A stretch of DNA of 64,000 nucleotides, taken from the NCBI GenBank assembly GCA_031292035.1, contig JARLHX010000092.1, positions 124,001 to 188,000 of the forward strand. The letters run 5' to 3'. Positions 8,853 through 58,455 of the stretch are shown here, in pieces. Source of the stretch: Negativicutes bacterium. GTDB lineage: Bacteria > Bacillota_C > Negativicutes > Sporomusales_B > JARLHX01. Numbering within the stretch: position 1 is the first letter of the stretch; each line of letters begins with the position of its first letter. The translations under genes were made by a program, and so were the position numbers. Under the pieces are notes generated by a model. It was not told where the DNA came from and did no database searches. It saw only the letters and a program-made list of their open reading frames with translations.

Positions 8853-10355
8853 CTACTTGTCGGTCCGATCTTTGTTGTCGGTGGTGTCTTTTCCTTGCGG
8901 TCCGGAGTTGGTTGGGCCGCCTTTGCCGTCACCGGACTGGACGGAGGATGGTGGGTTTTTCAGATCGGCTGGTTTAAAATCGCCGGGGCCAGTCCCGGGG
9001 CTGGTGCCTGTTCCCGGGGCGCCGCCCGATGGTTTCATTGTGGAGCTCAGAAAGCTCTGGGCTTCCTGTTTGATTGAAGGCGGCAATATCGGCGGAAGGT
9101 TTAGGGTGCCGTCATTGAGGAGAACCATTTTATCGCCGTTGGGACGAATGGCCAGCCGGGCGTATTCCACCTGGGCCGATAGGTCGCCGCCGCCGTTGGC
9201 GGTTTTGGTCACGGTGCCGGCAGTACGGGCGGGGGCTGACACGTTGATGTCGGCGGTTTGGCTGACTGCCAGACGGTTGCCGTCGATGATGACTGCGCCG
9301 CCGTCGTTGCCGTTGCCTTTGGCATAGATCTTGGCGCCGCTCTCGACGGTTGCCGTGCCGCCGGCGATAATGCCGACATAGCCGGCCCGGTTGTTGCCGG
9401 CGGCGCTGGCGTCGGTAGTCGAACTGCTGGTGACATTGACATCACCTGAGGCCACTAAAAGGATACGGGAGACTTTCTGGGTGTTTGGATCACTGGGATC
9501 GCCCCGGGTCGGGGCCAGGATGGTGCCGCTATGGGTGACACTGTCGCCCACCAGGATCACCGAACCGCCGCCCTGGCTGCTGGTGTCGCGGATGTCGAGG
9601 GTGCCGCTATTGGTGATGGTGTTGCCGGTTTGGGTGTTGTAGGCGATGTTGAACATGCCGTAGTTGCCTGAGCCTGATTGGCTCATGGTGACCTGTTTGG
9701 CGGCCATGAGCATGACGGTGCCGTTCGGAGCGCTGATGGTCACACCGGCGGCGACATTGATGCTTTTGGCCATCAGGGCGATGACGCCGCCTTCATTGCC
9801 GCCGACAGACGGAGTGGTGACCAGCTTGGCGGTGTCGCGAAGATCAATGGTACCGGCTGTTCCCGGTTCGGCGGCAAAGGCCATTGTCCATGCGTCGGCG
9901 CTGCTGTTGGTCGGGGTAAAGGCTTTGAACTGGGCATCGGAGATGTTCAGCGTCGTGGCGAAAAAGGCCGGGGCGGTGACCACTGAGCCGCCGCCAAAGA
10001 CGATGCCGTTCCGGTTGACCAGGAACATCGCGCCGCCGGTAACTGTGATATTTCCTTCAATGGTGGACTTGTCATTTCCAGTGACCCGGAACAAGGCCGC
10101 GTTGCCAAAGCGGCTGGTGCTCGGGGCGGTAAAGTTGACAGTGAGCGATTGGGCGCCTGTCAGCGACAGGGCGCTGCCCTGCAGGATGGCCTTGTTGCTG
10201 GCGATGCTGACCGCAGCGGCGTCGGCGGCGGTGATGGAGCCGGTGCCATATGTCACATTCCAGCCTTGCATCGGGGTGGCTGCCAGCGCCGCGCCGGCTG
10301 AGAGCATCATCGCCAGGGTGAGGGCCAGGACCGCCATGGTTTTGCGGGATGTCAT
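8853..10355 (-). CDS. TpsA-type filamentous haemagglutinin-like exoprotein
   Basis: 500 residues. A signal peptide (to about residue 26, ALAATPM) is followed by a two-partner-secretion domain: GWNVTYGTGSI, then GGAMFLVNRNGIVFGGGSVV, the counterpart of the NPNG motif. Beta-helix-like repeats continue to about residue 400. The last ~75 residues are Gly/Pro/Ser/Asp-rich and look disordered. It should cross the outer membrane through the upstream TpsB. It is short for an FHA-type adhesin, lacking long repeat arrays. TAAGGAGGA precedes the ATG; tpsB ends 19 bases upstream, so they form one operon under the cyclic-di-GMP riboswitch. Confidence 0.85.
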   Translation of the reverse strand: MTSRKTMAVLALTLAMMLSAGAALAATPMQGWNVTYGTGSITAADAAAVSIASNKAILQGSALSLTGAQSLTVNFTAPSTSRFGNAALFRVTGNDKSTIEGNITVTGGAMFLVNRNGIVFGGGSVVTAPAFFATTLNISDAQFKAFTPTNSSADAWTMAFAAEPGTAGTIDLRDTAKLVTTPSVGGNEGGVIALMAKSINVAAGVTISAPNGTVMLMAAKQVTMSQSGSGNYGMFNIAYNTQTGNTITNSGTLDIRDTSSQGGGSVILVGDSVTHSGTILAPTRGDPSDPNTQKVSRILLVASGDVNVTSSSTTDASAAGNNRAGYVGIIAGGTATVESGAKIYAKGNGNDGGAVIIDGNRLAVSQTADINVSAPARTAGTVTKTANGGGDLSAQVEYARLAIRPNGDKMVLLNDGTLNLPPILPPSIKQEAQSFLSSTMKPSGGAPGTGTSPGTGPGDFKPADLKNPPSSVQSGDGKGGPTNSGPQGKDTTDNKDRTDK

Positions 10356-10374: not shown

Positions 10375-11736
10375 TTAGAATGTCTGGGAAGCGAATAGAT
10401 GTACCTTGGTGGAGCCTTTCGGCGTGGCATCTGTCCCACGAAGGACCTTCGCCCAATCGAGGGCGATGGCAGTCCCGCCAGGGGTGCTGAGCCGCCAGCC
10501 CAGGCCGCAGCTCGAAATGCTCTGGGAGGCGATGTCGCCTGCCTGGGGGTTGTTGAGCCAGTATTTGCCCTGATCGAAAAAGACCAGCAGCTTTTGTCCT
10601 TTGAAGATTTCCGGGGTATAAATTTCGGTGGTCAGGCGTCCGCCTTTGTCGCCGACAAGGGCCCGCTCGCCGAAGCCCCGCACCGAATGCGCGCCGCCCA
10701 GGCCGAATTGTTCGCCGGAGATGAGGGGTGTGTCGGCGTATTGGCTTTCCAGTTGGGTGCTGAGCAGCCAGCCGGCTTTATTCAGCTGCTGCTGGTAGGT
10801 GGCGTTCTGGTGCCATACGGTGTAGTTGTTGACCGCTCCTGCCCGGGTGTTGTCAAAAACCGTTTGACTGCTGGACGCCGTCGCCAGGTTGCCGGTGAAG
10901 CCGAGACTGCCGGAAAAGCGGGAGTCGGCTCCGGTAGATGTGTACTGAAAGGCGACGCTGACAGGCAAAGTATTGACGTTGGTGCCAAGATTGGTGCCGA
11001 AAAAGTCGATTCCGTTGTTATATTCTTTGTAGTCCACCCCGAAATCGAGGCTGGCCTGGTGGTTGGCCGAGGTTTTCAGATTGTGGGTGTAGTGGGCTCC
11101 CAGGGCTTTGCCGTTGCCGGCGATATTGAAATAATCGGCAACAAGACCGGCGTTGACGTTGGAATAGCTGCCGCTGATGGTCAGGGTGTCGCCGGCCTTC
11201 GGCAAGGGGATGGCGTTCATAAAGCCGAACTGGTCAACCTTGTTGTTGTCAGGTGAGCGGGTATAGGAAAAGACCGCCGTCTGGGCCTGACCCAGCCAGT
11301 TGTAGTCGACCGCCAGATAGCCCATCCGGTTTTTGCCGGTCTGGTCGTCGCCGGTATTGTCATAGGTAATCATATTGCGAAAGGTTTTTGCTTCTGCCAC
11401 CCGGACCTCGACATTGGCGGTCGTCGGGCTTTGCGGCTGGATGTCCACCGCGATTTTCAGGGCCGGATTGTTGTTGGCAAAGGCGACTTCGTTCGATATG
11501 GTCTGGATGTCGAGCAACTGGCCCTTGTGCAGGGACGGTAAAAACTGCAAAATGGCGGCGGCGCTGAATTCTTTGTTGCCGGTTACAGTGATGGTGCCGG
11601 CAGTCAGCTTGTCGACGGTGATCACTTTGTTGGTTTCTACCGGCGTGTCGGCCGCCACGGCGGCGGAGGGTCCAACGGTGATAAGCAGGGCGGCAATGGC
11701 GAGAATGGTGGGGAGAAGACGGCGGCGATTGATAAT
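10375..11736 (-). CDS. TpsB outer-membrane transporter (ShlB/FhaC family), non-AUG start
   Basis: About 453 residues. It holds a POTRA-type segment (ITVTGNKEFSAAAILQFLPS to EVRVAEAKTF), then a long beta-barrel region ending in a terminal Phe (VHLFASQTF), as in Omp85/TpsB proteins. It would export the TpsA encoded next. The first standard start, GTG 11658, would remove the signal peptide. The frame extends upstream through NRRRLLPTILAIAALL and ...SAAVAAD, a clear signal sequence, to a stop at 11748. AAGGAG (11747-11742) sits five bases before ATT 11736 (or eight before ATC 11733), so initiation at a rare ATT/ATC codon is inferred. Only one clear POTRA is seen, where two are usual. Confidence 0.8.
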   Translation of the reverse strand: MINRRRLLPTILAIAALLITVGPSAAVAADTPVETNKVITVDKLTAGTITVTGNKEFSAAAILQFLPSLHKGQLLDIQTISNEVAFANNNPALKIAVDIQPQSPTTANVEVRVAEAKTFRNMITYDNTGDDQTGKNRMGYLAVDYNWLGQAQTAVFSYTRSPDNNKVDQFGFMNAIPLPKAGDTLTISGSYSNVNAGLVADYFNIAGNGKALGAHYTHNLKTSANHQASLDFGVDYKEYNNGIDFFGTNLGTNVNTLPVSVAFQYTSTGADSRFSGSLGFTGNLATASSSQTVFDNTRAGAVNNYTVWHQNATYQQQLNKAGWLLSTQLESQYADTPLISGEQFGLGGAHSVRGFGERALVGDKGGRLTTEIYTPEIFKGQKLLVFFDQGKYWLNNPQAGDIASQSISSCGLGWRLSTPGGTAIALDWAKVLRGTDATPKGSTKVHLFASQTF

Positions 11737-11765
11737 AACAACTCCTTATTCGTCCGTTTGTAGCA

Positions 11766-11788
11766 ATAAAAAAGACCCCGTGGGGTCA
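11766..11788 (-). terminator. Riboswitch expression-platform terminator
   Basis: On the minus strand GACCCC/GGGGTC forms a tight hairpin followed by TTTTTTATT. It lies between the cyclic-di-GMP aptamer and the tpsB ribosome site, where ligand-controlled termination would act. Confidence 0.8.
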
Positions 11789-11821
11789 GGCCAATGCGGA
11801 CAGGCAGCAGCTTTTCGGCTG

Positions 11822-11910
11822 AAAAGCGCAACCTGGCAGTCATAGGCTTCCCGCCCTTAGACCCATGGTTTTGCGTCCCTATCTTTCGATAAGTTTGCCA
11901 ACTATTAACA
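11822..11910 (-). ncRNA. Cyclic-di-GMP-I (GEMM-I) riboswitch
   Basis: Read on the minus strand the leader contains, in order, TTGGCAAACTTATCGAAAGA, then TAGGGACGCAAAACC, then GGTCTAAGG, and finally ATGACTGCCAGGTTGCG. These are the conserved GGCAAAC, GAAA tetraloop, GGGACGCAAA-CC, CUAA and closing GCC-GGUUGC elements of the GEMM-I aptamer, with the spacing of the two parallel stems. A terminator hairpin and then the tpsB ribosome site follow. The element should make adhesin secretion respond to cyclic-di-GMP; whether the ligand turns expression on or off needs folding analysis. Confidence 0.92.
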
Positions 11911-11918: not shown

Positions 11919-11948
11919 ATGGTATTCGTTTACAGAGGGGGGCGTCAA
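11919..11948 (-). promoter_or_regulatory. Promoter of the riboswitch-tpsB-tpsA transcript
   Basis: On the minus strand TTGACG (11948-11943), an 18-base spacer and TACCAT (11924-11919). Transcription would start about ten bases before the aptamer. Confidence 0.55.
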
Positions 11949-12082: not shown

Positions 12083-13273
12083 TCAATATTTGAACTTCAC
12101 AAAGAAGGTTGTGCCTTTGGCAGAACTTTTAACATTGATCTTGGCACCATGACGCTGAGCGATGCGGTAGCTGACCGCCAATCCGAGTCCTGTCCCCTTT
12201 TCTTTGGTTGTCAAAAAGGGGGTTCCCAGCTTGTCCATGACTTCTTTCGGCACTCCCGTTCCGGTATCGCATACAGCGAGAATAACTTCGCTGTTGCCTT
12301 GATAGGTTTTGATGGTTACTGTTCCGCCGGGCTGCATGGCCTCCAGACCGTTGCGGAACAAGTTCAAGACGAGTTGCCTGATTTCCTTTGCGTCGAGCTC
12401 TATGTCGGGAAGGTTGCCGGTCTCCAGTATAACGGTATGGCCGATACTGAAGGCGTCGGCCTGCAGCAGCGGAAACAAGGCATTGACGATATGATTCAGG
12501 TTGCCTGGCTTGAGTTCCACCACCTTGTTTTTTGCCAGTGACAGATATTCACTGATGATCGCGTTGGCCCGGTCGAGTTCTTCAATCATTGTGCCGAACT
12601 GTTCCCAGTGTTCGGCGTATTTTTCTTTCCGCCGGATGATTTGCAGATAGCCCCGGACAGTGGTCAAGGGGTTGCGGATTTCGTGGCCGATGCCTGCGGC
12701 CATTTCGCCGACGATATTCAGCCGGTCTAAATGAGCCATTTCATCTTCAAACCGTTTTCGCTCGCTCAAGTCGGTCATCACCATACAGGCAAAGCTGCCA
12801 TCTTCCATTTTAATATGGTTGGCCGAGACTAAGACCGGGACGCCCTGGCCATCGCCAGATCGCAGGTAGAGTTCGGTTTTGAGACAGCCCTCAGCTGTTG
12901 TTAAAAATCTGCTGAGGGTTCGTTGGTCAGGCGTCTTTGAGAGCGAAGAATAGAAAGAGGTGCCGATGATGTTGTCGAGAGGGGTTTTGATCATCGTGGC
13001 AAAGTTTTGGTTGCAAAAAAGGATGGTGCCGTCGGCGTCCAGCGTCACATAGCCTTCCTGCATCTGTTCGACAATGGTGCGATAGATATGGTCCGCCCCG
13101 TCGAGGACATAGGCCCGGTCGCCGTCCTCCCCGGAAAGAAGCAGGGCATCGACTTCGCCGCTTCGAAGGGCGTCTAAGATGCTATTGGCTTCGCCAAGCT
13201 CGCGGCGAAGCCTCAGATTTTCGCTTGCTAAATCCTGCTCGCTAGGAGCTATGGCAGGAAGACTTGCTATCAT
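12083..13273 (-). CDS. PAS-domain sensor histidine kinase, downstream of KaiB
   Basis: 396 residues, no membrane helix. A short coiled-coil N-terminus (residues 10-40) leads into a PAS domain (about 60-175), HisKA with GHEIRNPLTTVRGYLQ (phospho-His near residue 196), and HATPase_c with LVLNLFRNGLEAM (N box), DTGTGVP (G1) and GTGLGLAV (G2). It is closest in style to cytoplasmic sporulation-type kinases. It follows a KaiB-like gene by 12 bases, and KaiB-kinase pairs occur in non-cyanobacterial kai loci. The kinase core closely parallels that of the large kinase at 23.6 kb. Confidence 0.85.
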   Translation of the reverse strand: MIASLPAIAPSEQDLASENLRLRRELGEANSILDALRSGEVDALLLSGEDGDRAYVLDGADHIYRTIVEQMQEGYVTLDADGTILFCNQNFATMIKTPLDNIIGTSFYSSLSKTPDQRTLSRFLTTAEGCLKTELYLRSGDGQGVPVLVSANHIKMEDGSFACMVMTDLSERKRFEDEMAHLDRLNIVGEMAAGIGHEIRNPLTTVRGYLQIIRRKEKYAEHWEQFGTMIEELDRANAIISEYLSLAKNKVVELKPGNLNHIVNALFPLLQADAFSIGHTVILETGNLPDIELDAKEIRQLVLNLFRNGLEAMQPGGTVTIKTYQGNSEVILAVCDTGTGVPKEVMDKLGTPFLTTKEKGTGLGLAVSYRIAQRHGAKINVKSSAKGTTFFVKFKY

Positions 13274-13285
13274 TTTTTCACCCCA

Positions 13286-13609
13286 CTAGGACGTAAGACA
13301 GGCCAAAATTGTATCAGAGTCGGACAGATCGCCGACAAACAGTCGAACTGGGCAGGGCAGTTTTTTAACCAGTGTGGGAACAGCGATAATCTGGTCGGCT
13401 TTGGCCAGTAACGGCTGCTGGAAGATATCGATGATCTTTAGCTCACAGCGGTCTTGCAGCGACCCGCAAAGCCCCTTGACTTTGGCGACTGCTCGCAGCG
13501 AACGGGGACTCGACCCGGCGATATAGAGATGCAGGACATATTTGCTGTTGGCCTGGGCCGCTTCGGCCTGGCGGAGTTCGTTGTGTAGTTTATCGCGGGT
13601 GCCGTCCAT
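13286..13609 (-). CDS. KaiB-like protein
   Basis: 107 residues of normal KaiB length. The thioredoxin-like KaiB core is evident: YVLHLYIAGSSPRSLRAV, then LKIIDIFQQPLLAKADQIIAVPTLVKKLPCPVRLFVGDLSD, ending ILACLTS. In cyanobacteria KaiB switches fold to bind KaiC. Non-cyanobacterial homologues often sit with a KaiC-like ATPase and a kinase, as here, but the ATPase is missing (see the adjoining remnant). An AGGAGG site precedes the ATG. Likely a regulatory partner of the adjacent kinase; inference. Confidence 0.85.
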   Translation of the reverse strand: MDGTRDKLHNELRQAEAAQANSKYVLHLYIAGSSPRSLRAVAKVKGLCGSLQDRCELKIIDIFQQPLLAKADQIIAVPTLVKKLPCPVRLFVGDLSDSDTILACLTS

Positions 13610-13621
13610 GGATTTGGCCTC

Positions 13622-14023
13622 CTAATTCGGGGTGATGCTCAGTCCTACCAGAACTCGCTCGGTATTGGACAAATCGCCGATGATTTTTACCAGGGGCGGG
13701 GGGAGTCGCCTGACCACGGTGGGAATGGCGAGAATTTGATCGCTGCGCCCGGCCACTGGGTTTTCCACGATGTCGACGATTTCGATATGATTGTTTCCTT
13801 TACGATGCTCTTCGGCTTTTTCGGCTTTAAACGCCGCCTGGAGCTCGGCGATCGTCGCCTCCATCTTTAGGCGCTTGTGTTCGATTTCCCTCCGCCGCAG
13901 CAAAAGCTGCTCTTTTTCCTTGGCTTCCTGGGGAAAACGGGCCGACCCGGTCTGCACACCCTCGGGGCCGGTGTATACATCGACCAGCTCGATGCCGCTG
14001 TTGCGTTCGCCGTTGAGCTCTGT
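13622..14023 (-). pseudogene. kaiC'-'kaiB deletion fusion remnant
   Basis: Reading from the stop at 14024-14026, the open frame begins ELNGERNSGIELVDVYTG, continues PEGVQTGSARFPQEAKEKEQ and a Glu/Arg-rich helix. This matches from memory the coiled C-terminus of KaiC-like (RAD55-type) ATPases. From about EEHRKGNNHIEIVDIVENP it becomes the C-terminal half of a KaiB protein (DQILAIPTVVRRLPPPLVKI, then GDLSNTERVLVGL). Both the KaiC ATPase domains and the N-terminal half of this KaiB are absent. The GTG at 13957 has no ribosome site. Best read as a deletion fusing kaiC 3' to kaiB 3'; expression is doubtful. Confidence 0.75.
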
Positions 14024-26481: not shown

Positions 26482-29400
26482 TTAATTGGGGGCTGCTTGA
26501 ACCAGGTCGACGAATAGAGCGGCAAGCGTCGGGTCGAATTGGCTGCCGGAGCAGCGGATGATCTCGGCGATGGCGTCCTCTTTGCTCATTGCTTTACGGT
26601 AAGGCCTATCCCGCGTCATGGCATCATAGGCATCGACGATGCCCAGTATCCGGCATTGGATCGGAATTTCTTCCCCACTGATCCCAAGCGGATAACCGTT
26701 TCCGCTCCAGTGCTCCTGGTGTTTTAAAATCCAGTCGGCAATCGGCGCAAGGTCCGGCGAAGACTTGGCGATCCGGAAACCAATCTCACAATGGCGGCGC
26801 ATGACCGTCATTTCCTCCTCTGTCAGTTTGCCTGGTTTCTTTAAGATGTCGTCCGGAATGCCGACTTTGCCGATATCATGGAATTTGGCGAAGAGTCTAA
26901 GGTCGGCTACCTCACCTTGTGGCAATCCCAGCTTCTGACCCATGATTTCCATCAGATTACCCAGTCTTTCGGCGTGGCCTTCGGTGATATCGTCTTTTTC
27001 TTCCAGCGCTTTCATCATGGTCTGGACAATCGAGCCGCGGACGCTTTGACTCTGATGCATTTTTTGGCGGTACATGTTGTTGTCGGCCTCTTTAAAGACC
27101 TTGTCAATGTCGCAGCCGTCCTCGCCAAGCGCCCAACCGATCGACAGACTGAGCGGAAGCTGCGGATTGTCGATGTTGTACTGGATGACGCTGTTTCGAT
27201 AATGTTGGTCCAATTGCTCCATCTGCGCTTTTGTCGGACGATGCAAGATGATCGCGAATTCGTCGCCGCCGATCCGGGCACCGAAATCAGGTTCCTGTAT
27301 TTTTTGTTGCAGGAGCAGTACCACTTTTTTCAGCAGTTCGTCACCTTGACGGTGGCCGAGGGTATCGTTAATCAGCTTCAGACCGTCGACATCACAGACG
27401 AAGATGCCGATTCCTTGTACGTTCTTCGTCTGGAGCCCCAGCACTTTTTCCTCGAAATAGGTACGGTTATAAGCGCTGGTCATCGGATCACGCAGACTGA
27501 GGAATTCGATTCGTTCCTCCATCAGCTTGCGGGTCGTGACATCCCGCATCAGAGCCAGGCAGCACGGTTTTCCGTTGATGACCGCCGGCGATGATTTTAT
27601 CTCGAGGACCATGCGGTGGCCGAGGCGGTCGGTTGTATGCCGCTCGTAGAGCTGGATTCCCGCATTGACGGTGTTATGAATCCGGGACAGCGCTTCTTCC
27701 AGGTGGGTGGGAGAAGCGATGAGAACAATCCCCTGCTGCTTGAATTCGTCCTCCGAATAGCCGAACATCTCGGTCATCCTGCGATTGACGGCCAGGATAT
27801 CGCCAGTCTCCCTGTCGTTTACGACAAAGCCGTCGCTGGCGGCGTTGAAGATTTCCTCGGTGGTTTGCTGGCTGGCCTGCAGCTCGCGCATTTTTCGGGC
27901 ATTGTCGAGGGCGATGGCGGCCACCAGGGCGAACTGTTCGATCAGTGCCACGTCGTTCTCGCTAAAACAGCACTCTCTACTGGTAAAGGCCATCCCCAAT
28001 GTGCCGATGACTTCGCCGGCCGCGATCAGCGGCACTTGGACATCAGCGTGGATATTGTCATGGATGCGAGCCTGGTTGCGTTTGTCCCAGGTGCTGTAAT
28101 CCTCTACCATCACTGTTTTTTTCTGATGGACAACTTCGCCAAGGAGACCTTGGGTAATGCTCCGAATGCGCCCAATATCCTGGGCGTAAATTCCCTTGCC
28201 GATCCTGCGCACGGCGCATTGTTTTTCTTTGTCGATGATATATACATAAACATGCTCTGTCCCGGCCAGTTCGGCCAGTTTGGCGGCGATCGCCTCAAGC
28301 TCTTCGCCGGCATCCAGGTGGCTCATCAAGCCCAGCGCGGTTTCGTGCAGGGTGGACAGGACGGCCTTTTGGCGGGAGACTTTCTCGTTCACCCGCAGCA
28401 CTTCGTCGTATTGATTTCGCAGCTCCTCTTCTGTTGCGGTCAGCTCTTCGTGGGAGGCGGTCAGTTCTTCGAAGCTCTCCAGGAGAAGCCGCTCTTTCTG
28501 CCGCAGCTTCTCATCGGCCTTTTTCTGCTCGGTAACATCAATGCCAATGCCAACAATATACGGCTTGTTATCGACAACCATCTTGACTGCTGTAAAGTAG
28601 AACGGGATCTTCCCGCCGTCTTTGGTCTGAAGATTGGCTTCCGTTTGGGCTACGCCGTCTTGGAAGGCTTTTTCCACCTCCCGGGTGACTCGGGCCATAG
28701 TTTCCTCGTCGCCCCAATACCAATCAGTCAAAGACATAGCGGACAGCTCGGCAGCAGAATATCCGGTCACAGTCTCATGATTTTTATTCCAGCGCAGCAG
28801 ATGCCCTTCGGCATCATAAAGATAGAGAAGTCCGGGAACGCTTTCCAGCACTGCGTTGGTAAAACTTCGTTCGTTATTCAGTTCCGCAAAGCTTTCCTGA
28901 AGCTTTTGTTCAGCCAGGCGACGTCTGCGGGCCCCGCCGATCAGGCTGGCGGTAAAGGCGAGGATCAGGAGACTGGACCCCGCGGCGGCAGCGATATAAG
29001 TGTTGCGACGGTGCAGCATCGGCAGCAGCGTATCTTCCGCCACGCCGACCTGGACGATGAGGGGATAGTCCGGCATCAGACGGTAGCTCATCAGCACCCG
29101 CTTGCCGAGAAACTGGCCGAGGGATGGGTAAAACCCGGCCGGGGACTTGGGCATTTCTTCGAAAACCGAGGCCTTGGACATGTCAAGGCCAATATCTTCA
29201 CCGGTATTGCTGGCCCGGGCGTAGCCGTCCAGACCCAGCACCCGTACCACATAGTGTTCGTCAAAAGCCATATCGCGGTAAAATTTGTTGAAATACTCGG
29301 GATTCAGCGAGGCGTAGACGATGCCGTCGAAGCTGCCGTCTGGTTTGTTTAGGCGGCGCGACAGGGGGATGGAGGCTATCCCGGTCACCCGCCCGCTGAA

Positions 29401-29853
29401 GGGCCGGCCGATAAAGAGCAGGCCGGAATCGGCAGCAGCATGGACCTTGAAGTGCGGCAGGTCGGCAAAATTGATTCCGGCCGGGGCGGGACGGAGACTG
29501 GCCCGCATGTAGCTTGTTTTATCCTCCACCGCCAGTTGAATGGCCAGCGGGTCCTGCCCGATCTGCTCCATCAGGCGCGTGAGGGCCGGCGTCACCGCCT
29601 GCGCCCCTTCGTACTCCTTCTTCATCAGCAGGAGATATTGGTCATGAGTCTTTAATACCCGGCGCACATGTTCCTCGAAGGCCCGGCTAAACTTGTCGCC
29701 GTCTTGCATTACCGTTTCGATGGTCGCTTTCCGGTCTTGGTCGATCTGCCACAAGGTAGCGCTCCACACCATGATCAGCAGAAGGGTGCAGAATAAAAGG
29801 ATGGATTTGTTGGGGCGGAGCCAGTTTCGATACAGCTGGCCGGCATTATCCAT
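26482..29853 (-). CDS. Cache-PAS-GAF-PAS-GGDEF-HD-GYP cyclic-di-GMP enzyme
   Basis: 1123 residues. TM helices near 20-38 and 290-312 bracket a periplasmic Cache-like sensor. A PAS domain, a coiled coil (about 455-520), GAF (about 530-675) and PAS (about 685-800) follow. GGDEF is intact (ARIGGDEF, ~861), and the HD-GYP domain has HDIGK (~991) and HQEHWSGNGYP (~1050). Both making and hydrolysing cyclic-di-GMP are possible. The inhibitory I-site position carries QEPD instead of RxxD. ATG 29853 is chosen because GCGAGGG lies before it; an ATG eight codons upstream lacks a site. Confidence 0.88.
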   Translation of the reverse strand: MDNAGQLYRNWLRPNKSILLFCTLLLIMVWSATLWQIDQDRKATIETVMQDGDKFSRAFEEHVRRVLKTHDQYLLLMKKEYEGAQAVTPALTRLMEQIGQDPLAIQLAVEDKTSYMRASLRPAPAGINFADLPHFKVHAAADSGLLFIGRPFSGRVTGIASIPLSRRLNKPDGSFDGIVYASLNPEYFNKFYRDMAFDEHYVVRVLGLDGYARASNTGEDIGLDMSKASVFEEMPKSPAGFYPSLGQFLGKRVLMSYRLMPDYPLIVQVGVAEDTLLPMLHRRNTYIAAAAGSSLLILAFTASLIGGARRRRLAEQKLQESFAELNNERSFTNAVLESVPGLLYLYDAEGHLLRWNKNHETVTGYSAAELSAMSLTDWYWGDEETMARVTREVEKAFQDGVAQTEANLQTKDGGKIPFYFTAVKMVVDNKPYIVGIGIDVTEQKKADEKLRQKERLLLESFEELTASHEELTATEEELRNQYDEVLRVNEKVSRQKAVLSTLHETALGLMSHLDAGEELEAIAAKLAELAGTEHVYVYIIDKEKQCAVRRIGKGIYAQDIGRIRSITQGLLGEVVHQKKTVMVEDYSTWDKRNQARIHDNIHADVQVPLIAAGEVIGTLGMAFTSRECCFSENDVALIEQFALVAAIALDNARKMRELQASQQTTEEIFNAASDGFVVNDRETGDILAVNRRMTEMFGYSEDEFKQQGIVLIASPTHLEEALSRIHNTVNAGIQLYERHTTDRLGHRMVLEIKSSPAVINGKPCCLALMRDVTTRKLMEERIEFLSLRDPMTSAYNRTYFEEKVLGLQTKNVQGIGIFVCDVDGLKLINDTLGHRQGDELLKKVVLLLQQKIQEPDFGARIGGDEFAIILHRPTKAQMEQLDQHYRNSVIQYNIDNPQLPLSLSIGWALGEDGCDIDKVFKEADNNMYRQKMHQSQSVRGSIVQTMMKALEEKDDITEGHAERLGNLMEIMGQKLGLPQGEVADLRLFAKFHDIGKVGIPDDILKKPGKLTEEEMTVMRRHCEIGFRIAKSSPDLAPIADWILKHQEHWSGNGYPLGISGEEIPIQCRILGIVDAYDAMTRDRPYRKAMSKEDAIAEIIRCSGSQFDPTLAALFVDLVQAAPN

Positions 29854-29955
29854 GATGATCCCTCGCAGTATAGACATATATCTTGCATCGACGATTAATG
29901 ACCATTGTTTCTCTATTTCGACAAAGATGTCCTGCCTTAAAATGAACAGACAAGA

Positions 29956-43813: not shown

Positions 43814-43990
43814 TTCTTCATGGGTAAAAATCGCGGTTTTTCTTCTATATCTTGTGGTTATTACAACTTTTCTTGCGAAAAGTTGGCAAGTTTTGTATAA
43901 TGATGGCAGAGTGGATTGTGGCGGCGTTTGCGGCCGCCTGTTTCTACCAGGCTCTTCGGAGCAGACTGCGAGACAGAGTGGAGGTTTTTC

Positions 43991-45091
43991 ATGAAAAGGA
44001 TTCGTTCGTATGATCTCCAACCAGGGATGATGGTGGCTGAGGCCGTTTTTTCCCTCGACCGCAAGCAGATTCTGGTGGACGCAGGCGCGACGCTGACCGA
44101 GCGGATAATCAGTCAGATCAACAATTGGGATATTCCTTATGTCCTGGTTGTGGAAGAAGGCGAGGAACTGGCCCCGCCGGTGGCAGTGGATGAGCCAGAG
44201 CCGGTTGAACCCGATCTGTCCGCCTTGCCGGATGTAATGGCCCAGAAAACCGTTAATTTTGTTCAGAATTTTGAGGCGGCGATTATCCAGGTCAATGGCC
44301 TGATGGAAGATATCCGGGAGACGAAGACCGTCGATATGGATCCCATTCGCGAAGTGGCGGCTCAGGTGGTCAAGTATTTGATCCAACCTTCGGAAGCCAT
44401 CAATAGAATGCTGTTTCGTATGCCGCCCCGTACAGCTCCCCACTATCTGGCCTATCACTCGATCGCGGTTGCCGCCTTGTCCGGTATGCTGACCAAGTGG
44501 ATGGAGCTGACCCCCGGGTCGCTGAATGATCTGGTGATGGCCGGAATGCTGCATGATATCGGCAAGACCCAGCTGCCCCGGAGCCTGATGGCTGAGGACC
44601 AGCTTTTGCCGGAACATGCCCAAATGGCCAAACAGCATGTTTTGCTGGCGGTCAAGCTGCTCCGGGAGATCCGCGGTATTTCGCCCAATGTGCAGGCGGC
44701 GGTGCTGCAACATCATGAATGCCTTGACGGCAGCGGCTTCCCCAGGGGCCTGACAGGGGATCAGATTCACCCCTACGCCCGCATCGTCGCGGTTGCCAAC
44801 CGGTTGTGCGATATTGTCAGTGAATCGTCGCGGCTGAATCCGTTTTCAATGGCGGAAATCATCAAGCGCGAGATGTTTACCAAGCTCGATCCGACGGTGG
44901 GTGACACCTTCATCCGCCGGTTTAACGATTATCTGATGAATAACCCGGTGAGACTCAGTGACGGGCGCAAGGCCAAGGTGGTCTTTTTGCCCAGTGTCAA
45001 CCCGACTTCGCCGGTGCTGAAGACAGACGACGATCAATTCATCGATCTGACGAAAGAAAAGGTCATCAAAATCGAAGGAATCGCCTTTTAG
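43991..45091 (+). CDS. HD-GYP domain phosphodiesterase
   Basis: 366 residues, soluble. A variable N-terminal domain (about residues 1-140, Glu/Pro-rich linker at 57-72) precedes an HD-GYP domain: HSIAVAALSG, MLHDIGKTQLP, and HHECLDGSGFPRGL, where GYP is replaced by GFP. It should hydrolyse cyclic-di-GMP; the Y-to-F change is tolerated in some active members. ATG 43991 with GTGGAGG is chosen; the open frame from 43916 has no site. It is likely the counterpart of the cyclic-di-GMP-responsive adhesin system. Confidence 0.85.
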   Translation: MKRIRSYDLQPGMMVAEAVFSLDRKQILVDAGATLTERIISQINNWDIPYVLVVEEGEELAPPVAVDEPEPVEPDLSALPDVMAQKTVNFVQNFEAAIIQVNGLMEDIRETKTVDMDPIREVAAQVVKYLIQPSEAINRMLFRMPPRTAPHYLAYHSIAVAALSGMLTKWMELTPGSLNDLVMAGMLHDIGKTQLPRSLMAEDQLLPEHAQMAKQHVLLAVKLLREIRGISPNVQAAVLQHHECLDGSGFPRGLTGDQIHPYARIVAVANRLCDIVSESSRLNPFSMAEIIKREMFTKLDPTVGDTFIRRFNDYLMNNPVRLSDGRKAKVVFLPSVNPTSPVLKTDDDQFIDLTKEKVIKIEGIAF

Positions 45092-50367: not shown

Positions 50368-50454
50368 GCGAGGGTGGCGGAACAGGCAGACGCAGCAGAC
50401 TTAAAATCTGCCGGCCGTAAGGTCGTACCGGTTCGATTCCGGTCCTTCGCACCA
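50368..50454 (+). tRNA. tRNA-Leu(TAA), prophage attachment target
   Basis: 87 bases with CCA and a long variable arm (typical of Leu). Anticodon TAA in CAGACTTAAAATCTG; acceptor GCGAGGG pairs with CCTTCGC. The integrase gene of the following prophage begins just downstream, so the 3' part of this gene is a likely attachment site; the second copy lies outside the window. Confidence 0.92.
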
Positions 50455-50463
50455 GCAAAATCA

Positions 50464-50499
50464 ACGGCTCCGAGACTTTGATCTCAGAGCCGTTTTTGT
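50464..50499. terminator. Terminator between tRNA-Leu and integrase
   Basis: ACGGCTC pairs with GAGCCGT, plus an inner CGAGA/TCTCA stem; strong T run on the plus strand. It may close both the tRNA and, on the minus strand, the integrase transcript. Confidence 0.8.
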
Positions 50500-50515
50500 T
50501 TTGCCTAACATTCGC

Positions 50516-51664
50516 CTAACGAGCTTTAATATTTTCTTTTTTCGGCGCTTTCTTGCGAGTGATCCGATCAACGGTTGCGGAAACTTTATTTCGCATGGGA
50601 TCCGTAACATGTCCATAAACATCTGATGTGAAATACTGAGTGGCATGTCCCAATTGCTCACTGATGGTTTTAAGATCGATTCCCTCCTGCAGCATCAGTG
50701 TGGCAAAGGTATGCCTAAGATCATGAAACCGGATAACCGGAAGTTCGGCTTCAGCCATTCCTTCTTGGAATTTATGGGTAAGATGATCCGGACTGCGTGA
50801 TCGGCCATCTTCCCAGCACCACACATACCCCAGGTCATTGAAGGTTTCGCCGTTCCGGAGTTTGTTTTCAGCATATCGAACCTTTTCGCGTTTTAGTAGA
50901 GCCAGTAGGTCGGAAGGAATTCGGACTTTTCGCTGGCTCTTTTTTGTCTTTACTGGGCCGAGAGATGGTTTTTTATCTCTGGTTTCAAGGGTGTTTTTTA
51001 TTGTCAGCATTTTCTTTTCGATGTCAACGTCTTCCCATCGAAGACCGCATACTTCGCCGCGGCGCATTCCGGTGCTGATGGCCATGAGAATAGGCAGGTA
51101 ATAAACCGTTAAGCGGAAGTGATCAAGCATTTTTAGTACCTGTTCGGCATCGAGGATCGGTGCTTCGAATTCAGCTTTCTTGGGAGGATCGACCGCTTCA
51201 CAGGGGTTGTGCTGGATCAACTGCCATTTTACTGCTTGGCGATAGGCCATGAAAAGAACCCTGTGATGGTACCGTACGGACGTCGGGGAAAGGCCTTGAG
51301 ATAGCTTTTTCTGATAGTATTTTTGTATGTCCATGGGCCGTAATTTCTTCAACTCTATAAGGCCGATCACCTTGCAAATTGAATTAACCGACCATACATA
51401 TGTATCATACGTTCCGGGCCTGACCTTTCCTTTGGCCACCTCCAGCCATTCATCAAGGTATTCTTTTACGGTTTGATCTGTGGGTTCGATATACTGGCCA
51501 GTGACGATCTGCTGCATCAGGCTGGGCATAAGATCTTCGGCTGCCTTCTTATTATTGGTACCAGTGTTGATCCATTTTTGTTTGCGTTTTTTTGTTTCGG
51601 GATCAATACCTACATCAACAACAAGAAAATATTTGCCGTGATTTTTTATCAGGCTTCCGCGCAT
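50516..51664 (-). CDS. Tyrosine site-specific integrase
   Basis: 382 residues. N-terminal arm-binding domain (KYFLVVDVGIDPETKKRKQK), a SAM-like core-binding domain (residues ~60-145), and a catalytic domain with Arg in STGMRRGEVCGLRW, HDLRHTFATLML (His-Leu-Arg), LGHAT and the nucleophile Tyr in SDVYGHV. It catalyses integration and excision at tRNA-Leu. It reads towards the attachment site, as in many phages, and the start is directly before the repressor's end. Confidence 0.93.
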   Translation of the reverse strand: MRGSLIKNHGKYFLVVDVGIDPETKKRKQKWINTGTNNKKAAEDLMPSLMQQIVTGQYIEPTDQTVKEYLDEWLEVAKGKVRPGTYDTYVWSVNSICKVIGLIELKKLRPMDIQKYYQKKLSQGLSPTSVRYHHRVLFMAYRQAVKWQLIQHNPCEAVDPPKKAEFEAPILDAEQVLKMLDHFRLTVYYLPILMAISTGMRRGEVCGLRWEDVDIEKKMLTIKNTLETRDKKPSLGPVKTKKSQRKVRIPSDLLALLKREKVRYAENKLRNGETFNDLGYVWCWEDGRSRSPDHLTHKFQEGMAEAELPVIRFHDLRHTFATLMLQEGIDLKTISEQLGHATQYFTSDVYGHVTDPMRNKVSATVDRITRKKAPKKENIKAR

Positions 51665-51675
51665 TTCATCACCGC

Positions 51676-52332
51676 CTAATTGATAGACATTTCGAATTTT
51701 ACTACTCGACCTAACACCTTGATGTCTCTATTGTCATAAACCTGAGGTTCATAATTAGAGTTTGCAGCATAGAGAATCACTTTATTATCAAGCCATTTTA
51801 TGCGTTTCACGGTTGCTTCTTCATTTCCTACTAAAACTACGGCTACTTGGCTGTTTTCTACCCAATCCTGTTTTCTGACCAAGACTCTGCCGCCCGGAAA
51901 GATATTTGCTCCAGTCATACTATCCCCCGTAACGTCTAAATAGAAATACTCGCCATTCTTAACATTTACACTGGCCACTGGCTCATACTTGATAATGTTC
52001 TCAGCTGCAAACAGCGGCTTTCCAGCCCGAACCGTACCAAGAACAGGCACCATTACCATCTCCTCTACATCGTTAATTCTGGGATCGCTTGCGGCATCTC
52101 TTCCCATCAAATAATCTACCGTAATTTTGCGTCCTAGTTCACGAGTAAAAAAATCGGATAGTGTCTCAGCGACTTTTTTAGAGAGTGGTCGCGCGTTTTT
52201 CCCAGTGTATTTCGACAGCGTAAAATAATTTATGTTGGCGACCTTGGATAACTCAGTGCGCCATATTTTTTCTTCGATACCAAGTTCTCCTGAAAGCTTC
52301 TCGATAATTTCGCCGCTATTCACTTCACTCAT
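51676..52332 (-). CDS. LexA/CI-type phage repressor (S24 peptidase)
   Basis: 218 residues. N-terminal DNA-binding helix-turn-helix (LSKVANINYFTLSKYTGKNA) and C-terminal S24 domain: cleavage pair Ala-Gly in TVRAGKPLF, Ser in GDSMTGANIFPGG and Lys in EEATVKRIKW. The set permits RecA-stimulated self-cleavage. It is divergent from the excisionase gene and lies beside the CTTTTGTCCAATT operators. GGGGGTGAAAC precedes the ATG. Confidence 0.9.
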   Translation of the reverse strand: MSEVNSGEIIEKLSGELGIEEKIWRTELSKVANINYFTLSKYTGKNARPLSKKVAETLSDFFTRELGRKITVDYLMGRDAASDPRINDVEEMVMVPVLGTVRAGKPLFAAENIIKYEPVASVNVKNGEYFYLDVTGDSMTGANIFPGGRVLVRKQDWVENSQVAVVLVGNEEATVKRIKWLDNKVILYAANSNYEPQVYDNRDIKVLGRVVKFEMSIN

Positions 52333-52352
52333 GCTAGTAGTTTCACCCCCTT

Positions 52353-52381
52353 ATTATATTTTGTCACGCTATCATCATAAA
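52353..52381 (-). promoter_or_regulatory. Repressor-maintenance-type promoter
   Basis: On the minus strand TTTATG (52381-52376), 17 bases and a perfect TATAAT (52358-52353). The first operator copy touches its upstream side. Confidence 0.55.
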
Positions 52382-52384
52382 CCA

Positions 52385-52574
52385 CTTTTGTCCAATTTGC
52401 AATAACTTTTGTCCAATTGATTATTAATTATTCCGTTATTAGCGAATATTGTCCAAAGTAGAAAATAATTGTTGCAATATTGTGGACGTAGTTGTACAAT
52501 AAGGGTAAGAAACGGACAAAAACCGCTATATATATAGGGTTGCTAATTTTTTTTACTCAAAAATTGGACAAAAG
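52385..52574. promoter_or_regulatory. Phage repressor operator array
   Basis: The 13-mer CTTTTGTCCAATT occurs exactly at 52385-52397 and 52406-52418 (21 bases apart, two helical turns) and inverted as AATTGGACAAAAG at 52562-52574. Weaker copies lie at 52449-52456 (TTGTCCAA), 52482-52486 (GTGGAC) and 52513-52521 (CGGACAAAA). Together they flank and overlap both divergent promoters. Confidence 0.8.
52472..52500 (+). promoter_or_regulatory. Rightward early promoter
   Basis: TTGCAA (52472-52477), 17 bases and TACAAT (52495-52500). A weak operator-like GTGGAC lies in the spacer. It drives the excisionase and downstream early genes. Confidence 0.65.
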
Positions 52575-52596
52575 AGAAAATAGGAGGTAAAGGATT

Positions 52597-52797
52597 ATGA
52601 GTGGACAGTCAAAAGAACCGGTAAAAGTAGTTTACATGACCGGAAGACAACTAGCGGAGTATTTACAAGTCGGCAAATCAAAGGTTTATGAGATGGCTAA
52701 ACGTCAGGAAATCCCTTACGTGATGATTGGAAGCGTAATGAGATTTCGAAGCGATGAAATTGATGCCCATTTCAGCCATAACCCGAACGTTGTCTAG
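52597..52797 (+). CDS. Excisionase-family / MerR-like DNA-binding protein
   Basis: 66 residues. VYMTGRQLAEYLQVGKSKVYEMAKRQEIPYVMIGSVMRFRSDEI is a winged helix-turn-helix typical of the excisionase (helix_turn_helix_17) family. First gene of the rightward early unit; AGGAGGT lies before its ATG. It may act as Xis or as an early transcription factor. Confidence 0.85.
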   Translation: MSGQSKEPVKVVYMTGRQLAEYLQVGKSKVYEMAKRQEIPYVMIGSVMRFRSDEIDAHFSHNPNVV

Positions 52798-52842
52798 GGA
52801 AGAATTTCCGACAAAAAATGACGAAAGGAGGTGACAACTATT

Positions 52843-53010
52843 ATGACGGTTTTAAAATTAGCCCTGCAACGGGCGCACAGATGGGAGGTAGTTTGGTTTT
52901 ACTGGCTACGGGATAACATCAAGGCGCTCGTTGTCAGGGCTGCATTAGTTTTCGGCTGCAGCCTGCTGCTGGCCAACGTCCTGGAGCTTGCCCGCAGCGG
53001 CCGCCTGTGA
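52843..53010 (+). CDS. Phage membrane microprotein (55 aa)
   Basis: From ATG 52843 after AAAGGAGGTGACAAC. The sequence begins MTVLKLALQRAHRWEVVWFY; one hydrophobic segment (residues ~30-45) suggests a membrane location. Unknown function; tightly placed between early genes. Confidence 0.6.
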   Translation: MTVLKLALQRAHRWEVVWFYWLRDNIKALVVRAALVFGCSLLLANVLELARSGRL

Positions 53011-53026
53011 AAGGAGAGTGCCAATA

Positions 53027-53128
53027 ATGTGGTGTACCCGGTGCCCTAGTCGAGCCTACTGTATTCCTGATGATTGTCCGTACTTAGACCCACAAAAAAA
53101 AGACGCCCCTGAGGCGCCTAATCAATGA
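53027..53128 (+). CDS. Possible Cys-rich phage microprotein (33 aa)
   Basis: From ATG 53027 after AAAGGAGAG. The product starts MWCTRCPSRAYCIPDDCPYL with four cysteines, ending in a Lys/Pro-rich tail. The end of the gene coincides with a hairpin that would be a terminator on the minus strand (53095-53120), so coding status is uncertain. Confidence 0.45.
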   Translation: MWCTRCPSRAYCIPDDCPYLDPQKKDAPEAPNQ

Positions 53129-53326
53129 ATATTACTGATAGTTTAGCATGAAAAACTGGAAGAGTCAAAAGGGGGAAATATTGTGTTCGTAAATACGAAG
53201 TGGCTCAAGGAACAACGTGCCTGCGTTGATGGCACTACATGGTTTAAACAGAATTTTTCCGGTGACGCCGATTCGATGGAGGTTCGCGAGAAGCTTATTT
53301 CTGAAAATCGCAGAGATTGGGCCGAA

Positions 53327-53380
53327 TGGCTGACATCTCACGCATGGCGGGAAGTCCCCGCACTGCGTGAGATGTCAGCC
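53327..53380. repeat. 54-bp near-perfect palindrome
   Basis: GGCTGACATCTCACGCA (53327-53343) is the exact reverse complement of 53364-53380; the centre has a second GCGGG/CCCGC stem around AAGT. It lies inside a coding frame that is intact on either side of it. Confidence 0.8.
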
Positions 53381-53541
53381 ATGAAAAGGTTATTGCGCAA
53401 ATCGAGCGCGTCAGTCAGATTAAATGGCTGAAGCCTGAAAAAGAAAACCGCGTTAAGGTCGCGGCGCTGATCCAGGAGCACTGCCGGCAGCTGTCGAAGT
53501 TCGGCTGCCCTCAGGACGTACCGGTTAAATTTACAAATGAC

Positions 53542-53637
53542 GTGGACGCTGCTAGGGACGCTGCTAGGGACGCTGCTAGGGACGCTGCTTGGGACGCTGC
53601 TAGGGACGCTGCTTGGGACGCTGCTTGGGACGCTGCT
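53542..53637 (+). repeat. Eight 12-bp tandem repeats coding Asp-Ala-Ala units
   Basis: The unit (A/T)GGGACGCTGCT is repeated eight times without interruption, coding (R/W)DAA. It lies in the second half of the split phage gene and gives an amphipathic Ala-rich helix; copy number could change by slippage. Confidence 0.85.
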
Positions 53638-53783
53638 TTTATCATTATCGAGGACAAACTGGACTTCGGCAACCCGTGGGCCCCTCTGGTTGAAGTTTGC
53701 GAACTGGGATACCTGCCGATCTGCATGACCAAAGACGGCGTATTCCTTGTTTACGAACCCAAAGTCGGTGAGGTGACCGAATA

Positions 53784-53996
53784 ATGATCCTAGTAACCTG
53801 TAAACACCCTGATGATGACGGACCAGTTTTTTCGACGGTGGCCATCATCGGCGGTGAAGGCAAGAACATGTTGAAGCTGTGCGCACGGGCAAAACGGGAT
53901 GTAGCTTTTGCCAGCGATGTCCCGGCTGCATCCGTTCAGATCGTAAGTATCCATCATATCGGAAAGGAAGTGACTACTAATGGCCCCACGCAATAA
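53784..53996 (+). CDS. Small phage protein, unknown
   Basis: 70 residues. Its ATG overlaps the previous TAA. MILVTCKHPDDDGPVFSTVA and a basic end give no family match. It overlaps the next start by 17 bases, so it is translationally linked. Confidence 0.55.
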   Translation: MILVTCKHPDDDGPVFSTVAIIGGEGKNMLKLCARAKRDVAFASDVPAASVQIVSIHHIGKEVTTNGPTQ

Positions 53997-55146
53997 ACCG
54001 CAGGTAATGCCTGATGTCGATCCTGGCCAGCAGCCGGCCATGGAGCTGGTGGTGTTGGAAAACTCGTTATCATTCAGGTGGAATTTCATTGAGGTCAAGG
54101 CGGCCCTGGCCGAAGCGATCAAAAAGTACCACGGGCTGGTCGTGACTGACGATAACCTGCCTGATATGGAAAAAACCCAGAAGGAGATCGCTGGCCTCCG
54201 GATAAAGCTCGATAAGTTTTGCAAGGAAACAAAAAATTTATTGAACGAGCCCGGTACCAAATTCGACGGCGAGGTCAAAGAACTCCTGGAAGTCATCGGG
54301 GAGGCCGAGAAGCCGATCGTCGAACAGCTTCAAAAATACGAGGATGCCCGGGTAGCGCAGCGCGCTGATCAGCTGGCAGCGTTCGCCCAGGTTACAGCCG
54401 GCGCTCTGGGTATCCGGGAAGAGTATTTCAAATACGAGGTACCGGCCAGGCTGACCAATCGCAGTGTTTCGCCCGTACAAGCCCAGAAGGAGATCAAAGA
54501 CGCGCTGAACGGAATCCTGGCCAAACAGGGCGAGGATGACGCTGCCAAAGAGGAGACGCAGCGCCAGCAGGAGATCCGCAAAGAGCTTGCCCGGCAGCGT
54601 GACGGCCTGGTCGATGTTTTATGCCAGACTCATTCAATGGCCATGAACCTGAAAACGCCTGTGGTGCTGGCTGATATCCAGGCAATCCTGACGGATACGG
54701 TGGAGCTCGCTGCGATTCCTGACATCGTGAAAAGTGAATGCAAGAAGCGTTTGGACGTGGAGCTGGCCGTCGTAGCCGATAATGTTGTGCAGCGGTTGCA
54801 GCCTGAAGCAGTACCGGATCGGGCGACGTCATACACGCATCCTGAAAATTGCGGATGCCATAATTGCCTTCCTGGTAGCACCACGGTAACGTTACCGCCG
54901 GCTGTGACTTCGGTACCGCAGACTGGTGGGAATCACATGCCACCACCACCGGTGGCGCCGCCCTGGGCAGGGCCGCCGGCCGCCGTCGCACCACCGCCGC
55001 CTCCCCCACCGCAGACTGAATTGTTTGAAGTTGTTCTGAGATTTCCGGCAATATCGGCAGTTAATTGTGGCGCCCTCAAAATGTGGCTGGATGAAGGCGG
55101 CATTCTGGTCGAAGTAATCAGCCAGGTACCAGTGAAGGGAGCGTAA
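53980..55146 (+). CDS. DUF1351 phage recombination-associated protein
   Basis: 388 residues. The DUF1351 core is from residue ~25 to 290: coiled helices with LRIKLDKFCKETKNLLNEPG and PIVEQLQKYEDARVAQR, usual for proteins found beside phage ssDNA-annealing genes. Two short cysteine motifs (CGCHNC) and a Pro-rich linker precede the C-terminal 50 residues. Together with the next ATPase and SSB it forms a recombination module. GGAAAGGAAG precedes the ATG. Confidence 0.8.
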   Translation: MAPRNKPQVMPDVDPGQQPAMELVVLENSLSFRWNFIEVKAALAEAIKKYHGLVVTDDNLPDMEKTQKEIAGLRIKLDKFCKETKNLLNEPGTKFDGEVKELLEVIGEAEKPIVEQLQKYEDARVAQRADQLAAFAQVTAGALGIREEYFKYEVPARLTNRSVSPVQAQKEIKDALNGILAKQGEDDAAKEETQRQQEIRKELARQRDGLVDVLCQTHSMAMNLKTPVVLADIQAILTDTVELAAIPDIVKSECKKRLDVELAVVADNVVQRLQPEAVPDRATSYTHPENCGCHNCLPGSTTVTLPPAVTSVPQTGGNHMPPPPVAPPWAGPPAAVAPPPPPPPQTELFEVVLRFPAISAVNCGALKMWLDEGGILVEVISQVPVKGA

Positions 55147-55149
55147 GTG

Positions 55150-55410
55150 ATGAACCAGGAGAAAACGGGTTCATTCTCACTGTTACCACCAAAGCCTGAT
55201 GTATGCCAGGAGTGCGCAACTGATCATCCACCCGAATATCCTCACAACGCGCAAAGCCTTTACTATCAGACGAAATTCTATATGCAACATAATCGTGCAG
55301 CAACGTGGGCTGATGCGATGGAGCACTGTTCGAAAGAAATGAAAATGGTTTGGACTGAAGAACTGAAAAAACTCGGATTTGAGGTGACACCCTATGGCCA
55401 CAATGCGTAA
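55150..55410 (+). CDS. Small phage protein, unknown
   Basis: 86 residues from ATG 55150 (alternative GTG 55147), with AAGGGAG before it. A CxxC pair (VCQEC) and a helical C-terminus are visible. It overlaps the downstream ATPase start by 17 bases. Function unknown. Confidence 0.6.
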   Translation: MNQEKTGSFSLLPPKPDVCQECATDHPPEYPHNAQSLYYQTKFYMQHNRAATWADAMEHCSKEMKMVWTEELKKLGFEVTPYGHNA

Positions 55411-56449: not shown

Positions 56450-56452
56450 ATT

Positions 56453-56986: not shown

Positions 56987-57001
56987 CCTGTAATTGCATA
57001 T

Positions 57002-57037
57002 AGCCCGACTGGTTTTTACTTGTCGGGCTTTCTTTTA
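57002..57037 (+). terminator. Terminator or attenuator after ssb
   Basis: AGCCCGAC (57002-57009) pairs with GTCGGGCT (57022-57029), followed by TTCTTTT. It lies inside the early region, so it may need antitermination. Confidence 0.7.
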
Positions 57038-57058
57038 CCCTAAATCGGAGGAAATGCC

Positions 57059-58441: not shown

Positions 58442-58455
58442 GCGAGGTGATTTTG

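Follow-up and report, generated by a model that had tools for sequence, protein, structure and literature searches.

A c-di-GMP-I (GEMM-I) riboswitch aptamer lies directly ahead of a two-partner secretion (TPS) operon, tpsBA, in the window, the whole 64,000-nucleotide stretch of DNA that was analysed. We consider it probable that this riboswitch ties tpsBA output to c-di-GMP through conditional termination. Four observations read directly from sequence underlie this view: the match to the aptamer model, a terminator-like site, the presence of both tps genes, and the recurrence of the arrangement in relatives. In the proposed mechanism, the tpsBA transcript would start just upstream of the aptamer, and the nascent leader would fold the aptamer and bind c-di-GMP. 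The ligand-held fold would then decide between a stop at the terminator (11787-11768) and read-through into tpsBA, and the TpsB transporter and its secreted partner TpsA would be made together under c-di-GMP. The elements of the leader and operon are as follows:

11919-11948, minus strand: sigma-70-like promoter, TTGACG-N18-TACCAT (9/12 consensus matches)
11824-11909, minus strand: c-di-GMP-I (GEMM-I) riboswitch aptamer, RF01051 (covariance match, full length)
11810-11827, minus strand: spacer hairpin GCTTTTC-AGCC-GAAAAGC (folding)
11768-11787, minus strand: intrinsic-terminator-like hairpin GACCC-CACG-GGGTC with a six-T tail (scan; no overlap with the aptamer)
11742-11747, minus strand: Shine-Dalgarno AAGGAG of tpsB (read in the sequence)
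10375-11736, minus strand: tpsB, ShlB/FhaC-type outer-membrane transporter, 453 residues from a likely AUU start at 11736 (PF03865)
8853-10355, minus strand: tpsA, 500 aa exoprotein with a TPS secretion domain and a low-complexity Gly/Pro/Asp-rich C-terminal tail

A sequence-only reading of this DNA had placed a GEMM-I aptamer upstream of tpsB, naming a search with the Rfam GEMM-I covariance model as its check and the lack of a match as its refutation. The search returned a significant match to RF01051, scoring 72.2 bits (gathering score 35; E 3.3e-12; cmscan, Rfam 15), spanning model positions 1-87 of 87 without truncation. The coordinates given in that reading were right to within two bases, and every landmark that it quoted (GGCAAAC, the GAAA loop, GGGACGCAAAACC, CUAA and GCC-GGUUGC) is present in the aptamer. 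At Rfam 15 gathering thresholds, this is the sole riboswitch of the window, which also holds five tRNAs. Our own c-di-GMP-I model, built from 27 matches from the order of the closest relative (see below) plus the window sequence, gives 90.1 bits, a score that is not independent since that sequence helped to train the model. The aptamer has A for G at one near-invariant consensus base (GACGCAAAgCC), which keeps a standard A-U pair, and its variable hairpin contains one non-standard pair (G-A). By these matches the segment at 11909-11824 is a c-di-GMP-I aptamer, for which ligand binding is predicted.

Sensing of c-GAMP by this aptamer was considered and rejected. An A at the discriminating position is, we believe, the mark of c-GAMP-sensing GEMM relatives, and c-di-GMP is preferred as the ligand because the window has G there. 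Among the c-di-GMP-I relatives, one aptamer (L143 1501-1585; G314 contig 2 378111-378195) carries AGCAAAC in place of GGCAAAC, and this A for the first G is presumably the change that marks c-GAMP-sensing GEMM riboswitches. In the window aptamer, the alignment columns that we take to correspond to ligand contacts G20, A47 and C92 of Vc2 read G, A and C. These three nucleotides are given as the c-di-GMP contacts of Vc2 in the available portion of PMC4744006. Set beside RF01051, the window shares the conserved core over a full-length match; the aptamer itself is nothing striking, and it is the expression platform that is particular.

The genes behind the leader form a two-partner secretion pair, in which a TpsB protein with PF03865 (E 6.1e-28) and sequence matches to the solved structures CdiB and FhaC adjoins a protein with the TPS domain PF05860 (E 1.4e-13). 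The latter protein, TpsA, also matches TIGR01901 (adhes_NPXG), in keeping with a TPS/beta-helix domain, and the PDB entry 2odl 'Adhesin' (E 4.4e-06), which we take to be the HMW1 secretion domain. The 2odl match covers residues 31-382 of the 500 aa protein, and a large stalk for adhesion would have little room. TpsA may be an adhesin, as the family names TIGR01901 and 2odl suggest. Thus, where the sequence-only reading had proposed a two-partner secretion adhesin, the secretion pair (PF03865, PF05860) stands, and the adhesin function comes down to family and structure names for a protein of 500 aa.

The aptamer is on the same strand as tpsB and 87 bases ahead of its start-codon region. A terminator and a tpsB ribosome site had also been claimed to follow it, and both were recovered, as the terminator-like site at 11787-11768 and AAGGAG at 11747-11742. 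The terminator-like site (GACCCCACGGGGTC-TTTTTT) comprises a hairpin at 11787-11774 of the minus strand with a 5-bp GC-rich stem (-7.5 kcal/mol). On the other side of the aptamer, the promoter-like site ends at 11919, and therefore a transcript would start beside the aptamer, at a predicted position of ~11912. By count, neither site is above chance in the 601-base region scanned, with one promoter-like site found versus a shuffle mean of 0.5 and one terminator-like site versus a shuffle mean of 1.0; they are credible because of their placement around the aptamer. Position and strand fit a riboswitch leader. Between aptamer and terminator, the flanks of the spacer hairpin, CAGG (11835-11832) and CCTG (11804-11801), could pair according to folding, displacing the aptamer 3' strand. 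The tpsBA genes look like a separate transcription unit, because the upstream histidine-kinase gene, which ends at 12083, is closed by a hairpin of its own (~12060-12021, seen by eye and absent from the terminator scan).

The direction of the switch was approached by equilibrium and truncated-transcript folding of the antiterminator, with the terminator suppressed by soft penalties. The available portion of PMC9262584 distinguishes the ON switch pilM, in which terminator and aptamer are mutually exclusive, from the OFF switch Cd1, in which the two are able to coexist and compete with an antiterminator that is only transiently stable. In the window, the pairing probability between the terminator 3' arm and the aptamer strand is 0.0 both in the free and in the aptamer-held ensemble, and therefore the platform is not of the pilM type. 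Nor is the terminator 5' arm formed by the aptamer 3' strand, as in pilM-like ON switches. The terminator is instead separate from the aptamer and compatible with its fold. This layout is shared with Cd1 (Clostridioides difficile, OFF, flagellar genes), where, in the available portion of PMC9262584, a separate terminator likewise coexists with the aptamer and the antiterminator must use aptamer sequence. The window differs from Cd1 in its target gene and in having a weaker antiterminator that is statistically unsupported.

That antiterminator would pair the terminator 5' arm with the aptamer. Its pairing probability is 0.61-0.72 in the free ensemble versus 0.14-0.17 when the aptamer is held (transcript lengths 131-135, at which this arm has only just been transcribed), and four other assumed start sites yield a 5' arm sequestration of 0.62-0.72 free versus 0.01-0.39 held. 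Greater sequestration in the free state of the folding model is what a Cd1-like switch should show. The signal is not specific, being equalled by 145/300 random GC-rich arms and by 122/300 shuffled spacers. Invasion of the aptamer strand by the spacer is equalled by 53/400 dinucleotide-shuffled spacers, which is not significant, and such spacers equal the window in free-state stability (88/400) and in the cost of the aptamer fold (179/400). A demonstrated OFF antiterminator was accordingly rejected for the window: the free/held contrast is strong, yet shuffled and random controls match it. For escape from the antiterminator, findpath gives a barrier of 8.1 kcal/mol in the window, with 4 of 5 arm bases paired, compared with 13.1 kcal/mol in the clearest OFF-type leaders of the order (L132, L134 and L136) and 5.1-11.8 kcal/mol in four other leaders with separate terminators. 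In a Cd1-like manner, all 12-13 bases of the terminator 5' arm in L132, L134 and L136 pair with the variable hairpin of the aptamer further upstream. The variable hairpin of these three leaders repeats the terminator 3' arm, yielding a clear OFF-type antiterminator.

We lean slightly and tentatively, at somewhat short of even confidence, towards a window switch that would be OFF with c-di-GMP. This lean is not a result; it is adopted because the terminator is compatible with the aptamer, as in Cd1. Folding of terminator and antiterminator, which the sequence-only reading had put forward as a check, thus gave coexistence and a free/held contrast, and failed for the antiterminator against randomised controls.

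The terminator forms alike in the free and aptamer-held states (0.83 and 0.83; terminator pair 0.9985 and 0.9979). With its equilibrium probability at ~0.998 in both states, any control would need to act kinetically. The equilibrium numbers fit equally well a silent switch, in which the aptamer binds c-di-GMP and the downstream terminator masks the response. Masking of this kind is described for Bc1 of Bacillus thuringiensis, where a second terminator, T2, masks the unfolding of T1 (available portion of PMC11218506). However, the full conservation of the aptamer suggests selection for use, and equilibrium folding ignores co-transcriptional kinetics. We judge a silent switch to be quite improbable.

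The recurrence of the arrangement argues for the main reading, conditional termination by a riboswitch belonging to tpsBA. The nearest relatives of the dihydroxy-acid dehydratase encoded in the window are from the Bacillota MAG CTSoil_080 (84%), CTSoil_079 (81%), Pelosinus (79%) and CTSoil_073 (79%), with Megasphaera (75%) and Phascolarctobacterium (75%) further away. We take the named genera to belong to the class Negativicutes, and these matches point to a host in this group of diderm Firmicutes, in agreement with the probable diderm Firmicute host proposed earlier. RF01051 was found in 26/28 genomes of the order of CTSoil_080, with 1 to 14 copies each, and in 77/380 genomes of its class, the latter under stricter filters by which weak matches are lost. 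A TPS domain above cut-off is present in 196/380 genomes of the class. Among the matches listed, the aptamer is directly upstream of tpsB or tpsA at 8/110 TPS regions of relatives (3 of the 56 in L215-L270, 5 of the 54 in L275-L328).

A rough Poisson expectation for this pairing is 0.084 in 110 regions, and for the order alone the comparison is 3/54 versus 0.041 expected, assuming aptamers scattered at the mean density of the order and 1 kb upstream per region. The estimate is rough in that the regions include short ones and contig fragments and the 54 out-of-order regions come from genomes carrying RF01051. The sites emerged from a scan of 92 sources including the window (the window itself, L216, L215, L082 and L266) and from a scan of 54 sources in RF01051-carrying genomes outside the order (L308, L324, L304, L285 and L284). 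Since L284 and L082 are one site, 8 distinct relative sites result. Pfam identifies TpsB in L215, L308, L324, L304 and L284 and the TPS domain in L216 and L285, and the TPS domain of L266 comes from the genome family search.

All 8 relative aptamers are on the gene strand, ~60-150 bases before the first plausible start codon as judged by eye. Five sites have tpsB first (G300, G004 contig 31, G097, G320 and G090) and three have tpsA first (G298, G313 and G004 contig 1). The TPS-domain frames of these riboswitch-linked relatives span 1576 (G298), 2313 (G300), 5131 (G313), 1136 and 1686 (G004), 718 (G097), 1720 (G320) and 4336 (G090) codons; counted stop-to-stop, with some near contig ends, they are longer than the 500 aa of the window protein.

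The remaining 102 of the 110 TPS regions of relatives have no aptamer at their TPS genes. In addition, no Rfam riboswitch was found at the 20 closest TpsB loci (L095-L114), and the three nearest TpsB genes (G103 39%, G097 37% and G305 33%) have no aptamer beside them. The lack of an aptamer at the closest homologues, together with the commonness of c-di-GMP-I copies in the order, is what would be seen if the window aptamer were a relic or a coincidence, functionally unrelated to tpsBA. Set against this are a match of 72.2 bits over the whole model, the same-strand position 87 bases before the start-codon region, and 8 further pairings where 0.084 are expected. We regard a relic or coincidence as very improbable indeed. 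Multiple aptamers also occur close together in relatives: two tandem c-di-GMP-I aptamers with 84 bases between them are present at G090 contig 65 50844-51101, and second copies lie <1.5 kb away in L129, L140 and L126, on the opposite strand in L129 and L126.

The leaders of the relatives are built differently from that of the window. In 7 of the 8, the terminator is formed from the 3' strand of the aptamer itself and has a probability of 0.96-1.0 free versus 0.00-0.16 held. The eighth, L266, is weaker (0.41 free versus 0.0 held) and has an imperfect U tract. In these comparisons the terminator stems were chosen by eye at three leaders, L324, L266 and that of the window; a simple scan served to locate the window terminator. 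The seven are predicted by this folding to be ON switches with c-di-GMP, and they share their architecture with pilM (Geobacter metallireducens, ON, c-GAMP) as described in the available portion of PMC9262584. The window departs from pilM in lacking an overlap of aptamer and terminator, and pilM senses c-GAMP (PMC9262584, same portion).

The architecture of these seven leaders favours an ON sub-case of the main explanation, in which c-di-GMP would raise tpsBA expression via an aptamer-invading spacer hairpin and the terminator would act in the ligand-free state only. The window retains a degenerate hairpin of the aptamer strand (CAGG/CCTG, ~11835-11801), and the available portions of PMC4744006 and PMC4933901 describe c-di-GMP-I switches that turn adhesion proteins ON. 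This sub-case is somewhat unlikely, as no U tract follows the window spacer hairpin and the aptamer-held fold contains no element that would sequester either arm of the terminator. A broader reading would make the TPS riboswitch a recurrent re-wired module of diderm Firmicutes, mostly ON with c-di-GMP; the window copy, through loss of an overlapping terminator and gain of a separate one, would be sign-reversed to OFF for a small TPS exoprotein, with a weak AUU start acting as a second brake. We find this reading doubtful. If the sign of the window switch is truly opposite to that of its relatives, these leaders would offer a natural series for a change of riboswitch polarity by moving the terminator.

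In the cases known to us, the effect of c-di-GMP on two-partner secretion adhesins is relayed by proteins. For CdrAB of Pseudomonas aeruginosa, c-di-GMP acts through the protein FleQ and through proteolysis of the LapD/LapG type, the second of which is touched on in the available portion of PMC6584795. CdrAB resembles the window pair as a TPS adhesin with c-di-GMP involved in its expression, and differs from it in that no RNA aptamer is described for CdrAB in the available portion of PMC4768041. Here, the sensor is an RNA placed on the TPS operon itself, and this pairing is found repeatedly among Negativicutes. No c-di-GMP riboswitch before a TPS operon was found in the literature searched, which was largely without subscription journals and included the available portions of PMC4768041, PMC6584795, PMC3971182 and PMC4744006.

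Control of attachment proteins by c-di-GMP-I riboswitches is already known, and it is the combination with a TPS operon that is found here. As in the window, Vc1-gbpA (Vibrio cholerae) and Bc2-cap (Bacillus thuringiensis) place a c-di-GMP-I riboswitch before the gene of an attachment protein (available portions of PMC4744006 and PMC4933901). The first target binds N-acetylglucosamine surfaces and the second is a collagen adhesion protein; neither is a TPS pair as far as those portions describe them. In C. difficile, whose class I switches are OFF, Cdi-1-2 precedes a putative adhesin (available portion of PMC6200980). In Selenomonas, of the class Negativicutes, c-di-GMP signalling was called still unstudied in 2026 in the available portion of PMC13339959.

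The start of tpsB is unusual. Its frame reads TAA, then GGA GTT GTT ATT ATC AAT CGC, before the signal peptide INRRRLLPTILAIAALLITVGPSAAVAA, and no ATG, GTG or TTG occurs in this frame between the upstream in-frame stop and the signal peptide. The likely start is the AUU at 11736, with the AUC at 11733 as a candidate alternative; AUU is preferred because AAGGAG is located five bases upstream. An ATG misread as ATT through a sequencing or assembly error may also account for this codon. A frameshift in place of a non-standard start was rejected, as neither of the remaining frames yields a signal peptide. The database prediction for tpsB (P0001) has 427 aa, a length that corresponds to an internal GTG at 11658 and loses the signal peptide. 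On inspection, the three nearest TpsB homologues appear to start with GTG, GTG and TTG.

TpsB also lacks sequence at its N-terminus. Its alignment to most homologues begins at the second POTRA, with the first-POTRA region missing, and the absent stretch is present in 14/15 aligned homologues. The exception, P0013, is a Negativicutes MAG protein that has PF02493 repeats, which we take to be MORN repeats, and no PF08479. The window TpsB gave no match to PF08479 (POTRA_2) and a weak match to PF07244 (E 0.12) over residues 48-115, and it apparently has a single POTRA domain. It thus shares the PF03865 barrel with FhaC/CdiB-type transporters and differs from their usual two-POTRA build, which is typical of but not required for TPS. 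All five riboswitch-linked TpsB proteins of relatives that were tested have PF08479. TpsB homologues at L217 and L219 have no PF08479 match and are similarly short, and that of L218 is also short. A single-POTRA Omp85 protein, PlpD, is on record in the available portion of PMC4104836, which describes no single-POTRA TpsB. A pattern search for TpsB homologues picked out 5 stretches of viral contigs, none of which was confirmed.

Two genes for possible c-di-GMP enzymes are also present:

26482-29877, minus strand: PAS/GAF-GGDEF-HD-GYP protein, with GGDEF intact and no RxxD inhibition-site motif
43916-45091, plus strand: HD-GYP-like protein, with HDIGK and with HHECLDGSGFP replacing GYP

The first of these could make or break c-di-GMP, as judged from its domains. 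Both had been proposed as enzymes that might set the signal; they are indeed there, and a specific link to the switch does not follow, because they are ~15 and ~32 kb from the riboswitch and the aptamer is found in 26/28 genomes of the order. We treat them as context only.

Elsewhere in the window, at 12083-13957 (minus strand), two genes for KaiB-domain proteins lie directly upstream of a PAS histidine kinase, an arrangement that we find reminiscent of clock output modules and presumably SasA-like. An integrase gene (50516-51664, minus strand) adjoins a tRNA gene (50368-50451) and is accompanied by DUF1351, helicase and PcfJ-like genes, and the region 50368-64000 is probably an integrated mobile element.
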